From Acanthamoeba castellanii str. Neff (Eukaryota > Discosea > Longamoebia > Acanthamoebidae), in the NCBI RefSeq assembly GCF_000313135.1, contig NW_004457355.1:1-12041 (forward strand): 12,041 bases of DNA, given 5' to 3'. Position 1 is the stretch's first letter; every line of letters begins with the position of its first letter. The translations under genes were made by a program, and so were the position numbers. Positions 1,902 to 7,701 of the stretch are shown piece by piece. The notes below the pieces were generated by a model that worked only from the letters and a program-made list of their open reading frames with translations, was not told where the DNA came from and made no database searches.

Positions 1902-4387
1902 TTAGGCGTAGTCGTCGTTGTTAATGGGCGCGTAGCCGACGTGCTTCTTCCTGTGCTGGAGGATGAAGTAGGTCGTGAGGCCGCCCACCACCACCAGGGC
2001 CACGCCGCCGCCCACACCGATGCCGATGCCGAGCTTGGCCACCATCGAGTAATCAGACTCTGCGGTGCGCACACAGGGGAGAGACGACGTGTGTGAGCGA
2101 ACGAGAATTCGATAGGAACACGCACGCACGCAAGCTGGGCGTCGCGACGTACCGGGAACCTTGTATTGGGGGTAGTTCGGGTAGTTAGGGTAGTTAGGGT
2201 AGGCAGGGTAGGCAAGAGCGTCCGACCGGACGGGCATCAGCTCAGGGCGGTTCCACTGGATAAGGTCCGAGCTGTGGTGCGCGTGTGTTAATGCGTGCGC
2301 GGCGGCGGTGCGCAGGGATGGAACCGTGGGTGCGGGGTGTCGTTGCGTGGAGAGTAGGCGCGTACGCGAAGTGGTTGGGGGGCTTGATGGAGATGGGCTC
2401 CGACTCGACGGTGGAGAAGTGCTCCCAGTCGAGGTCGCTCACGAAGGCCGGGCGGTCGACCTTCTCGACCTGGACGTCGAAGTCGGCGAAGTCGAACTCC
2501 CACGTGTTGTGGTGGCGCACGTACACGTGCTTGCCGTCCTCGTTGTTCATCACGTACACACTGCCCCGAGTCGCAGCATTGTCTAGTCAGCCCCCCCCCC
2601 CACAGTGCACTATGAAGAGGGAAGATCGAAGCGATGGCGCACGTACGTGGCACCCTTGTTGAGGGCGAACTCGGCGAAGGCGTAGTCCTCGGCCACCGAG
2701 TTGTCGGGGTACCTGAGACCGCTGTCGAACAGGCTCTGCGTCACACACACGTGGGAGTCGTGAGTCGTCGTATCGACAACAAGCAATGCTGACGTGTCAC
2801 GCGTGAGCGTGCGTGAGTGCGTGGGTGGTACCTTGCGGTAGACGAAGGTGCCGAAGTGGGGACCCCACGTGGAGGCGCGCTTGACGATGTAGAAGGACTG
2901 GGTCGGGAGGATGTAGTAGTAGTGGTGCTCGAGCACGGTCATGTCCACCTCGCCGCGGATGATGGGCGCCACCTGAGCCGAGATACGGTGCTCGCGGAAG
3001 TAGTCGTCGTCGTCCCAGTGCACCACGATCTCGCCGCGCGCGTTCTCGACAGCGATGTTGCGCTTGACGCCGATGGAGCGGCGCTCGGTGAGGTGGATGT
3101 AGCGCACGTTGGCGGCCGACAGCGCGGCGATCATGGCGGGGTTCTCGGCCTGCGACACGCGACCATCGTCGACGATCACGATCTCGATGTTGGGGTAGTC
3201 CTGCCTCTGGACGAGCTCGATGGCCTTTCCCAGGAACTGCGGGCGCTCGTAGGTGGGCATGATCACGGTGACCAGAGGGTACTCAGCTGCGCAGACACAA
3301 CACACAGCACACACACACACGCACACGTGACACAACGCACAACACATGGCACACGTCAGCGGTTTGTGGATGCACGCCGGCGGGAGAGGTGAACGTACTG
3401 GCCATGCCGGCGTGAGGCGTGACGTAGGACATGTGGGTCCACGAGAAGGCCTTCTTGTTGGGCGCATCGAGCTCGCTGCCGTACTGGCCCACAAGGAACG
3501 CCTTGGCGTCGGCCGGCACGCGGATGGTTCCCTCGTGGAACGAAGCCTGTGCGAAAGCACACGCACACGCACACGCACACGCACACAACAAGCTGGGTGA
3601 GCGCCCGTGTGCGTGTGCGTGCGGGTAGTGGACGGCGGAGGTACCAGCTTGGTGGGGAAGACGGTGGCGACGGCGGGCTGGTAGGACAACCACGGGTGCA
3701 CGAGACGCTCGCCATCGTCGGACCGCGAGTAGACGAACAGGTTGACGAAGGCCGACACCTCGCCGTCGATGACGATCGACACCTTCAGGTGCTTCACGTC
3801 CTCATCGCCCTGCACCAGGTAGTTGCTGCCGGTCTCCAGCTCCGCGAGCAGCACCTGCGTGATTTTTTATTTGGTTGCGGTCCAAAACAAAAAGACATGA
3901 GGTGACGTCTGCAATCTTTACTATTGGACGGAGTTGCATAACCAAAATCTGATTAGGATTGTTATTTAAATCAATAAAAAAAATATGGGGAATGCAATGG
4001 ACAAGGTAAAAATGGCAAATTGGAAAATTGGTTTTTGATTGGAATTGATGGGCATACCTGGCGAGCGGTGTCGAAATTGACTGACTCGATGGCGAGGTCG
4101 ACAGAGTGGGCGTGGTGGGGCATCGAAGCGGCATGGCGCCAAACGCCCTCGAGCGTGCGACCGGTGGCAAAGTAGCACACGCCGGCGCTCTCGAGACGCT
4201 CGTGGATGGTGGCAACGAGGCGGGCGATGGCAAGGGCGCGGTTGAGCTGCTTCTCGCCGCCGTGGGGGCCGGGCCGCGAAATCTCGTGCACCAGGCGCTC
4301 TTCGCTCTTGCACGAGGGGGTGGCCGAGGCGGTGATGGCCAGGGCGAGAAGCGCCAGGCTCAAGAGCAGGAAGAATCGATTAATCAT
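1902..4387 (-). CDS. Secretory type I membrane protein: LicD/fukutin-like domain fused to a GT2 glycosyltransferase
   Basis: Exons 4387-4058, 3854-3645, 3546-3399, 3286-2832, 2735-2647, 2560-2366, 2271-2153 and 2059-1902 join in phase to 567 residues. A signal peptide (about 1-22: MINR then a Leu/Ala core) is followed by a LicD-like region (about 45-225), with GRTLEGVWRHA (76-86) matching the GTLLGavRh motif and IRVPADAKAFLVGQYG (188-203) matching the vP...yL...YG block. A GT-A/GT2 domain follows (about 232-435): VTVIMPTYERP (235-245), VDDG (268-271), HWDDDDYF (319-326, the DXD-type metal site), ED (397-398, candidate base) and VRHHNTW. Then come a YPN-repeat stalk (497-512), a Gly-rich membrane helix (about 523-549) and a tail HRKKHVGYAPINNDDYA. 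Predicted topology puts the enzyme in the ER/Golgi lumen or outside the cell. Substrate is unknown. The ATG at 4387 gives the better signal peptide than an upstream in-frame ATG at 4429. Confidence 0.85.
2163..2210 (-). repeat. YPN tandem repeat encoding the membrane-proximal stalk
   Basis: Nine-base units coding Tyr-Pro-Asn/Ala/Gln repeat about five times in exon 7 of the glycosyltransferase gene. They lie just outside the predicted membrane helix, so they probably form an extended proline-rich stalk holding the catalytic domain off the membrane. Confidence 0.8.
2591..2601. repeat. Homopolymer run of 11 C (G on the sense strand) in intron 5
   Basis: An uninterrupted C run lies within the 86-nt intron 2561-2646 of the glycosyltransferase gene. 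A similar run of ten C lies at 798-807. Such runs are prone to length error in assemblies but here fall outside coding sequence. Confidence 0.9.
3557..3622 (-). repeat. Inverted pair of hexamer microsatellites in intron 2 of the glycosyltransferase gene
   Basis: Plus-strand 3557-3586 is (CACACG)n, and 3607-3622 carries the complementary GTGTGCG-type repeat. About 15 bases can pair perfectly across a roughly 20-base loop (3587-3606). The whole element sits inside the 98-nt intron 3547-3644, so the pre-mRNA can fold into a hairpin between donor and acceptor. Confidence 0.85.
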
Positions 4388-4655: not shown

Positions 4656-7600
4656 TCATTGTTGGTGGCACTTGACGCTCTCGGCGTCGTTCTTGTCTTC
4701 CTCCTGCTTCTTGCGCTTCTCGGCCTTCCGCCTGGCTCTGGCCTCGCCGCCATCGCCGTTTCGGTGGTGGTGGCCGCGGTGGTGGTTGTCCGGCTGCGTG
4801 GCCGGTTTGGCCGGGGCCTTAGTCGCGAACACGGGTACCACGCTCCGGCCGGCGATGACCGCTTCGATGGGTTCCCGCGGCTGCAGGAGGGCCAAGTCCT
4901 CCACCACCCGCGCAAAGACCTGCGAGGGAAGAAGTTGAGGGTCAAAAGCCCTGATGGTGGTGGTAAGGAGAAGAAGAGGGCGGACGAATACCTTCTTCTT
5001 CTCTTCCGACTTGGCGATGTCGTCTTGTGTGGGGAAGACGACGTTGAAGATGATGTGCAAGTCGCCCGCCTTGGGCTTCGGGGCCGAACTGTAGGCCGGA
5101 GTCTTGGGCATGTTGGGCAGCACCGGCATTCCCTCGCCCTGTTCGCGACGGCGACGAAAAAAGTCAGGCGCTGCGGGAGGCGTGTGCACTGCGCACGACA
5201 GCGAACAAGTGCGTACCCGAATGACCACCATGTCGCCCGTCTTGATGATGCCCGCAAAGGAGCCGTATTCGTGGGGTCGGACCAGGAGGACCCGGTTGTC
5301 CATGTGGATGATAGGGAAGGCCGCCCCCGTGAGCGCTTCGTGGAGGGTCAGGTGTTGCGTGTAGAGAAGATCGTTTGATGTCCCGATGCGTTGGAAGGGC
5401 TTGTTGTCCTCCTTCTTCTCTGCGATCGTGAAGATGACATCCCCCGCTCTGCTGCCCGGCTGCAGAAGGCGCGTAGAAAGAGTAAAGTGAGACGGCGCCG
5501 CTCGATGAAGAACGTTACCATCTTCTTGTGGGCGAGGCAGTACCTTAGCGTCCGACATGCCAGCGAAAACAAGTCGCTGGCCCAGAGCCATCCCTCGTTC
5601 CACCTTGACCTCGAGTATTTCGGGCCGGTAGACCACAGAGCGACCAGCACAAAGTGGGCACCTGGAAGACCCGAAAGAGAGAGGGAGAGAGAGAGGGAGA
5701 GAGAATGAGCCGAGGGTAATAAGCGAGCGTTGTGCTGACGTTAGGACGTACCTCTCACAGGCCTTGAGTGTGTAGCCTCGAGTGTTGCACTTGCGGCAAG
5801 GACTCACCAACTGCTGAAACAGAGGCGGCATGATCTTCGTGATGCTGATGTTTTGCGAGATATGAGCATCGGAAAAGAGAAAGCGCGGTGTGGAGTGGAT
5901 GGGGAACACGAGGAGAGACAAGTACGTTTTGGTGCCAATTCCGTTGCACTCGGTACACTCCTCGGCTGCGCCCTCTGTCATGCCTCCAGCACTGAAATGG
6001 CAAGAAGAACGGTCAGTTGCAACCAATACAAAGGGACAAAATGCGGAAAAGGCAGGAGGACGTTACCCGCCGCACATGGTGCAGACCACGTGACGAGTGA
6101 TCTTCATCTTCCTCACGCGCCCATTGTACAGCTCCTCGAGCGAGCACGGCAGGGAGTGCACGAGGTCCTCCTCCTTGGGCAGAGCCTGCAGCAGCTTCCT
6201 CTCGTATTTTTTCTGTTTATACAGAACACGCGCGTGAGAAGGGACCCTGGTCACAACGATACATTCTAGGCATTCCACAGGGAATACGTGTTCTGTGGTC
6301 CTGACTTTCTGACCATTGGACCTTGCCAATGAATAGCGACGAACACAAACCTAAAAGCGAAGTTGCAATGCTTAGGTACCTTCGCGAAGAAGAGGCTCTT
6401 CCAGCGGCCGTGGACCTTGAGCGGGGGCTTGGACAGGACCACTTGCTTTCGCAGCAGCGGGTTGACTGCAGGAGGGATGGGCGCTTGTCAGGCAAAGGCG
6501 CAGCAACAACAACATCTGATCCCTCGCGCAGGCGTGAATATGTGAGCAGCGCCGTACCGATCTCCAGCCCGTGCTGTTTGCGGTTGATATTGAAGACTCT
6601 GCTGAGGATGTCGTGTGCGCCGTCGGACCTGGGCTTGTGCGTGTCGCTCGTTTCGAGCGCACCCGCGAGGTGCGGGCTGACCGTCACCACCATCTCGTCG
6701 TCGTCCGTTTCTCCCATGACGGGAGAGCCAAAGGCCTCGTCGGCCGTCGCGGACAGTCGCCCGCGCTTCTCTCGCTTCTCCTTCTCGATGCTGTCGACCC
6801 TCGCGCTCCCTTCCTTGTTGCTTGCGACCTCGTCGGCCTTCCTCTTGCGAGAGCCGTTGAGCTGCGACGACGAGGTACCACCGACCACGCCTCGTGGGTG
6901 CGGCACGGCGAAGGTGTGGCCGGCAGTTGCGCTCTTGCTCCTCTTTTTGACGTCGTGCTGCTCGGGGCCATCCGTTCCCGCGTCCGCCGACGAGTCCCTC
7001 CTCTGCACGCGGCCCGCCGTCGCCAACACGCTCGTCTCCCACGGCCAGGCTGCCCGATAGTGCTCCTTCCACAACATGTCTGCAGCACATACCACCACAA
7101 ACGCGAAGAAGGGGACGTCAGAGACTGCTACCCGCGCACACCAAATTTGGTTTTAAATATGGTTTTAAATATACGGAGCGTGTGTTTTTTAAATATAGAA
7201 ATATAGCCGCGCAGGATAATAGCGAGCCAAAGGGCGGAGCTCGCTGATTCAGGAAGGCGCATCTGAGATCTCAACCCAATAATTCGCATTGGGGTGGGCT
7301 TTAGAACAACGAAGGTGTGGATTGCCGATGCTATTGTCCCAGATGATGAAGGCTGGGTAGCTACCGAGCAAGCAAAAAGGGAACAAACAAAAGATCGAAG
7401 TGAAGAAGAGATGGGAGAGCGTACTGTCGCAGGCAAGGCGCTGCCATTCGGAGCAAACGAGGCCCACTTTGCAGAGCACATGAGGAGGTAGGAAAGCAAA
7501 AATCTTAATCCACATCTCGTCGCTCATTAGGTGCGTCGTGTGGTGGTGCTGTTGAGATGTGGAGATGCTCGGGAACGCGTGGTGGGAAAAGCTCGGGGGC

Positions 7601-7701
7601 TTTGATGAGGAAGTAGAGGTGGAGGTATTGTTGGCTGGACTTGGGATGTCGAATTCAGCCACTTCATCGACGTCATTGCTCAACAATTTGTGAATCTCCA
7701 T
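4656..7701 (-). CDS. F-box protein fused to the zinc-finger and client-binding half of a type I Hsp40 (no J domain)
   Basis: Ten exons: 7701-7425, 7079-6558, 6465-6380, 6212-6067, 5991-5926, 5844-5752, 5661-5544, 5459-5217, 5138-4992 and 4919-4656. They join in phase to 653 residues. An F-box (about 58-102) starts LMSDEMWIKIFAFLPPHVLC; its end (CSEWQRLACD, then NMLWKEHY) crosses intron 1. A charged linker (103-295) carries NLS-like basic runs (KKRSK, SRKRKAD). The DnaJA-type part begins DLVHSLPCSLEELYNGRVRK (311-330). All four zinc motifs are intact: CTMC 339-342, CTEC 356-359, CRKC 382-385, CPLC 398-401. The C-terminal domains follow (EILEVKVERGM, GDVIFTI, HLTLHEALTGAAFPI, GEGMPVLP). A His-rich patch, a basic helix and CHQQ end the protein. 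No HPD-bearing J domain exists, so Hsp70 stimulation is not expected. F-boxes bind Skp1 in SCF ubiquitin ligases; a role in ubiquitinating misfolded clients is inference. Confidence 0.88.
5675..5705. repeat. GA-rich simple repeat (TC on the sense strand) in intron 6 of the F-box/Hsp40 gene
   Basis: On the RNA this is a CT-rich tract about 13-40 nt upstream of the acceptor CTTCCAG (AG at 5663-5662), so it probably serves as the polypyrimidine tract of the 90-nt intron 5662-5751. Confidence 0.85.
7080..7424 (-). other. Long first intron of the F-box/Hsp40 gene, with an AT-rich repeat and CArG-like palindrome
   Basis: At 345 nt this is the longest intron in the window. The donor ACA|GTACGC and acceptor GCTGCAG|AC join phase 1 to phase 1 and restore the F-box. 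It contains the 10-bp palindrome CCAAATTTGG (7141-7150), a tandem 12-bp duplication of GGTTTTAAATAT (7149-7172) and a related TTTTTTAAATATA (about 7185-7197). No gene is seen inside. Confidence 0.75.

Follow-up and report, generated by a model that had tools for sequence, protein, structure and literature searches.

A single spliced transcript of Acanthamoeba castellanii str. Neff joins an F-box to the cysteine-rich and C-terminal half of a class A (DNAJA/Ydj1-type) Hsp40 that lacks the J domain. At least one such transcript exists, and there may be further isoforms. A profilin encoded in the same assembly is identical over 125 residues to profilin II of A. castellanii (PDB 1f2k/2acg), which puts the genome at or close to this species. 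The gene lies in the window, the whole stretch of 12,041 nucleotides that was analysed; its architecture is genuine, has transcript support, and is conserved in partial sequences from relatives. Judging from its domains, the protein could act as the substrate receptor of an SCF ubiquitin ligase for non-native proteins, a reading for which the chances seem evenly balanced.

Gene model and transcript

The initial annotation placed the gene at positions 7701-4656 of the minus strand, and these coordinates are correct. In the ten-exon gene model, 653 residues are encoded by ten exons separated by nine GT-AG introns of 72-345 bases, with the following layout.

7425..7701, minus strand: exon 1, with MEIHKLLSND (7672-7701), a Ser/Thr-rich stretch, and the start of the F-box (7425-7527, residues 59-92); gene model and Pfam
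7080..7424, minus strand: intron 1, phase 1, GT-AG; gene model, with the public protein P0001 reading LACDNMLWK across the junction
6558..7079, minus strand: exon 2, with the end of the F-box (7054-7079), a linker with basic clusters (residues 111-245), and DILSRVF (6592-6612); gene model
6380..6465, minus strand: exon 3, VNPLLRKQ...WKSLFFAK; gene model and P0001 junctions
6067..6212, minus strand: exon 4, where the DnaJ half begins (EDLVHSLPCSLEELYNG), with zinc-finger motif 1, CTMCGG; gene model, Pfam, solved relatives, and Ydj1 alignment
5926..5991, minus strand: exon 5, zinc-finger motif 2, CTECNGIG; gene model and Ydj1 alignment
5752..5844, minus strand: exon 6, zinc-finger motif 3, CRKCNTRG; gene model and Ydj1 alignment
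5544..5661, minus strand: exon 7, zinc-finger motif 4, CPLCAGRS, and DnaJ_C; gene model, Pfam, and Ydj1 alignment
5217..5459, minus strand: exon 8, DnaJ_C
4992..5138, minus strand: exon 9, the end of DnaJ_C and then the start of the following helix
4656..4919, minus strand: exon 10, the remainder of the post-DnaJ_C helix, a basic tail, CHQQ (4659-4670), and the stop codon (4656-4658); gene model and predicted structure

The gene model also bears out the earlier proposal that the F-box helix is rebuilt across intron 1, LACD being followed by NMLWKEHY with phase 1 on both sides. That the F-box exon and the DnaJ half belong to one transcript is established by P0001, a public protein of 595 aa retrieved by protein search (8 member sequences from 12 contigs of at most 2,822 bases), which runs through all nine junctions. 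P0001 corresponds to residues 59-653 of the window protein and is identical at 594 positions, A430P being the sole difference. The unspliced DNA for these residues takes 2,872 bases, more than the 2,822 bases of the longest contig, and P0001 shows no intron reading; therefore, it derives from spliced RNA. Its source label, 'lgn', is read here as denoting assembled public sequencing runs. An artefact in which two adjoining genes were wrongly merged was rejected as highly improbable, since P0001 contains the residues flanking all nine junctions, given non-chimeric contigs, and nothing except the low-complexity linker was found in its favor. P0001 itself begins at Met59, and the start at Met1 is supported separately by the exon-1 pieces of three relatives (P0058, P0064, and P0065), which start with MEIHKLLSND, identical at 10/10 positions.

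In the predicted structure, the linker has pLDDT values mostly below 50, and its basic clusters (KKRSKS, RKRK, and KREKRGR) look like nuclear localisation signals. No Rfam family matched the window at its gathering score.

The F-box and the J-less DnaJ half

Searching the spliced product against Pfam listed seven families up to E 10, three of them below their own cut-offs. Both F-box families lie above their curated cut-offs, in agreement with the F-box named in the initial annotation: F-box-like (PF12937) at E 2.1e-10 over residues 61-101, with 40.6 bits vs a cut-off of 24.3, and F-box (PF00646) at E 2.4e-5, with 24.5 bits vs 20.5. The usual form of the motif is LPxE; here it reads MSDE, with MS at the usual LP position both in the window protein and in 3/3 exon-1 pieces of relatives and, thus, affinity for Skp1 cannot be assumed. 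The rows of the structure comparison span only model residues 235-523, and the F-box lies outside them. The same assembly contains Skp1-family sequences (3 matches), cullin-family sequences (21 exon-level matches), and a large F-box family with at least 150 matches (150 of 452 candidates scored).

The substitution of MS for LP, shared by the window and its three exon-1 relatives, would suit a protein that works outside degradation, as a holdase or decoy whose F-box has only weak affinity for Skp1 or a different binding partner, and that buffers misfolded proteins without Hsp70. A precedent is ZnJ2, described as a DnaJ-type zinc-finger protein without a J domain but with holding chaperone activity (PMC5818400); it is an algal chloroplast protein and has no F-box. 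Nevertheless, such a role seems improbable, as the F-box scores well above its Pfam cut-off and is strongly conserved in each of the exon-1 pieces.

This conservation was quantified among the pieces retrieved by a profile search (16 matches), which were taken as orthologues. Of these, P0054 and P0055 span the DnaJ half, with 82% and 57% identity in the profile-search listing, and P0060 and P0063 are further DnaJ-half pieces; P0058, P0064, and P0065 correspond to exon 1, and P0066 and P0067 to exon 2, the last being almost the window itself (134/135 linker residues). Counted region by region, after removing intron readings from four pieces, identity in P0058, P0064, and P0065 amounts to 32/34, 31/34, and 30/34 residues in the exon-1 part of the F-box, vs 45/48, 23/48, and 23/48 in the stretch preceding it. 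The F-box is, therefore, kept much better than the preceding stretch in the two divergent relatives, but not in the close one.

The second half of the protein was originally described as the cysteine-rich and C-terminal portion of a class A protein with all eight zinc cysteines, and both Pfam and the alignment with Ydj1 agree. DnaJ_CXXCXGXG (PF00684) matches residues 339-404 at E 1.6e-8 (35.1 bits vs a cut-off of 32.7), and DnaJ_C (PF01556) matches residues 313-553 at E 3.6e-23; the DnaJ C-terminal fold of a class A client-binding half is present. All eight Ydj1 cysteines that we take to be zinc ligands have a cysteine partner in the window protein, and motifs 3 and 4 (CRKCNTRG and CPLCAGRS) are partly degenerate apart from these cysteines. 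Over the aligned region, identity with Ydj1 reaches 40% (82/205 aligned). The five positions presumed to form the peptide pocket of Ydj1 are occupied by L, M, I, L, and F, and these hydrophobic residues make client binding plausible. The best of 14 solved relatives listed by sequence are DNAJA2 (E 3.9e-45) and Ydj1 (E 3.4e-38), whereas a bacterial DnaJ in the list is far weaker (E 1.2e-11).

The Hsp70-recruiting J domain is missing, as had been noted at the outset: PF00226 is not found in the product, which thus lacks the J domain with HPD that defines the strict J-domain protein (Hsp40) family. A hidden J-domain exon was rejected on the basis of a six-frame search of the assembly, in which the 36 matches listed (E 0.1 or better) all lie outside the window. 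The DnaJ half is preceded by the F-box and a linker of ~200 residues. Within exon 2, DILSRVF (residues 249-255) sits where class A rows carry their DIF/DIL motif, and P0066 reads DIF at this place; this likeness was spotted post hoc, about 50 residues lie between DILSRVF and the DnaJ half, and its interpretation as a remnant of the G/F region is suggestive only.

Relatives, kinship and the C-terminal CHQQ

Both halves in one chain are seen only in P0001 and in the window, and the F-box and DnaJ pieces of a divergent relative probably belong to one gene. Among the matches listed in the fusion searches (18, 36, and 16, the last by profile search), P0001 alone carries both an F-box and DnaJ_C. 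These searches scored the candidates sharing most words (7,993, 2,575, and, in the profile search, 7,992), and the absence of other fusions is thus a negative limited to those candidates. A viral origin was considered and rejected: scanning viral contigs with P0001, which addresses close relatives only, gave 4 pattern matches, 0 of them confirmed.

The DnaJ half is kin to eukaryotic class A proteins and not to bacterial-type DnaJ. A tree of 23 rows contains one split supported at 100/100, with 16 rows on one side, including the eukaryote-named P0003, P0004, P0006, and P0012, the paralogues C15, C60, and C73, and the window clade, and 7 rows on the other, including a named bacterium and the paralogue C9. 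The window groups with P0054 and P0055 in a clade supported at 100/100, with a stem of 1.52 changes/site and end branches of 0.03-0.37; the tree fixes neither the root nor the exact sister of this clade. With such a long stem, the client preference of the DnaJ half may have changed. The protein could, then, be a dedicated receptor whose DnaJ half, like the substrate modules of other F-box proteins, was re-tuned from general misfolding to a single native substrate or a small set of them: a long stem followed by short branches, here without time calibration, fits a function that changed and was then fixed, and no heat-shock element stands out, the window's only match with one mismatch allowed (vs 2.17 expected) lying inside the gene and not upstream. 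The retained zinc cysteines and hydrophobic pocket positions speak against such specialization, which we regard as rather unlikely.

The assembly contains at least 17 DnaJ_C matches at nine loci, and a J-domain match adjoins six of them (C15, C60, C73, C9, C44, and C197); the fusion, thus, exists beside ordinary Hsp40s. Another DnaJ_C locus (C124:511 kb) is preceded by sequence given as N. A further locus, C124:636523-637427, has no J-domain match nearby and could encode either a J-less Hsp40 or one whose J domain is split by an intron. At C9:694838-698568, an F-box match precedes a DnaJ gene by ~3.4 kb, both in the same orientation, and the two are probably separate genes. Moreover, P0014, a protein of 389 aa ending in CSQQ, has DnaJ_C with no listed J domain and no F-box; it is either a further Hsp40 that lacks the J domain or a prediction that was cut short.

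The window protein ends in CHQQ, a prenylation-type CxxX motif that the initial annotation overlooked and that is also present in P0001. It is identical in 3/3 orthologue pieces reaching the end (P0054, P0055, and P0060), a conservation equivalent to about two lineages, since P0054 and P0060 differ very little. Among the 12 other rows of a 14-row alignment (A1), 10 end in CxxQ, one in CATS, and one without such a motif. The open frame directly downstream of the canonical paralogue C15 ends in CAQQ and is taken as its last exon; two Hsp40-type proteins of the assembly, then, appear to end in CxQQ. The CASQ end of Ydj1 is reported to be farnesylated but not cleaved, and growth at high temperature needs this farnesylation (PMC5014548, PMC10320760). 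CHQQ does not appear in the body text of the CXXX screen. The enzymes found speak against this modification: two clear prenyltransferase beta loci occur in the assembly, their best solved relatives being GGTase-I beta and Rab-GGTase beta, and an exon-by-exon search of the 38.4 Mb assembly (250 contigs, possibly incomplete) found no farnesyltransferase beta. CHQQ could serve as a prenylation site of the window protein and provide membrane attachment, with which the nuclear-looking basic clusters of the linker sit badly.

Proposed function and comparison with known systems

The chain that carries the F-box also carries a candidate substrate-binding domain, both being present in P0001. In the preferred reading, that of an SCF receptor for non-native proteins, the F-box, standing where a class A Hsp40 has its J domain, would dock on Skp1-Cul1, the peptide-binding domains and the zinc finger would hold non-native proteins, and the SCF would ubiquitylate the held clients and send them to the proteasome instead of the Hsp70 refolding cycle. 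The protein would probably be dimeric and, if CHQQ is prenylated, located partly at membranes. Skp1 binding, client binding, ubiquitylation, dimerisation, and prenylation are the inferred steps of this reading. The MS of the F-box, the lack of a conspicuous heat-shock element, and the long stem weigh against it.

The initial annotation had already cast the protein as a possible triage receptor created by loss of the J domain and gain of an F-box. The structural part of this proposal holds, as the F-box/J-less class A architecture is present in one transcript and the F-box, the hydrophobic pocket positions, and the zinc cysteines that a triage receptor would require are kept, while the function itself is a proposal. 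However, losing the J domain need not cut off Hsp70, since a mixed dimer with the J-bearing class A proteins of the genome could supply the domain in trans; only failing this should the client skip the refolding cycle. Such pairing might even be the main mode of action, the C-terminal dimerisation segment joining a canonical class A Hsp40 to give a dimer that bears a J domain on one subunit and an F-box on the other, so that Hsp70 and the SCF would meet on a common client, or else the Hsp40 partner would itself be the substrate. We consider this unlikely, though slightly less so than a dedicated receptor, the DnaJ half being only 40% identical to Ydj1. A tentative combination of these elements, somewhat more probable than the mixed dimer and clearly less so than the simple receptor, would be a quality-control ligase of an undescribed kind, a prenylated, dimeric SCF that uses its class A half as receptor, with unfolded-chain recognition and ubiquitylation fused in one chain, and that pairs with ordinary class A Hsp40s, thereby bringing Hsp70 and the SCF onto one membrane client and setting the choice between repair and destruction.

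In relation to known systems, the window protein shares with DNAJA2 and Ydj1 the eight-cysteine zinc finger, the DnaJ_C fold, the peptide-pocket positions, and a C-terminal CxxQ, but has an F-box and a linker of ~200 residues instead of a J domain. Like F-box receptors of SCF ligases, it has an F-box followed by a candidate substrate-binding module. The usual modules of these receptors are WD40, LRR, and Kelch, whereas here the module is the client-binding half of an Hsp40 and MS replaces LP. CHIP/STUB1 is likewise a chaperone-linked triage ubiquitin ligase, but it is a U-box protein that binds Hsp70/90 via TPRs and has no chaperone client-binding half. In yeast, Ydj1 is described as a substrate adaptor of the ligase Rsp5 after heat shock (PMC8698790, PMC7463752). 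In that pairing, too, a class A Hsp40 passes misfolded clients to a ubiquitin ligase, but there the partners are separate proteins that associate when needed, and the Hsp40 still has its J domain, whereas in the window the SCF docking piece is fused. FBXL2 differs in its LRR substrate module and geranylgeranylated CVIL end (PMC9141697). No description of an F-box/DnaJ fusion was found among the listed titles and abstract beginnings of openly licensed papers.

The choice between refolding and destruction has been studied mostly with chaperones and ligases that meet transiently. If the proposed function is true, an SCF docking piece joined to an Hsp40 client half that lacks the J domain would keep these two fates apart within a single molecule. 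It would also be the counterpart of the yeast Ydj1-Rsp5 pairing, made permanent and moved to the SCF.

Elsewhere in the window, CA/TG tracts at ~97-200, 1300-1390, and 3550-3600 (coordinates estimated from open frames) read as HTHTHT, VRVRVR, or RTRTRT in several frames, and a weak RCC1-repeat match (E 0.005, under the curated cut-off) lies at 11963-11589 on the minus strand. An open frame at 776-1147 on the plus strand contains a partial VWA domain (PF13519, E 3.7e-7), and another, at 3866-2613 on the minus strand, contains a glycosyltransferase family 2 domain (PF00535, E 1.5e-23).
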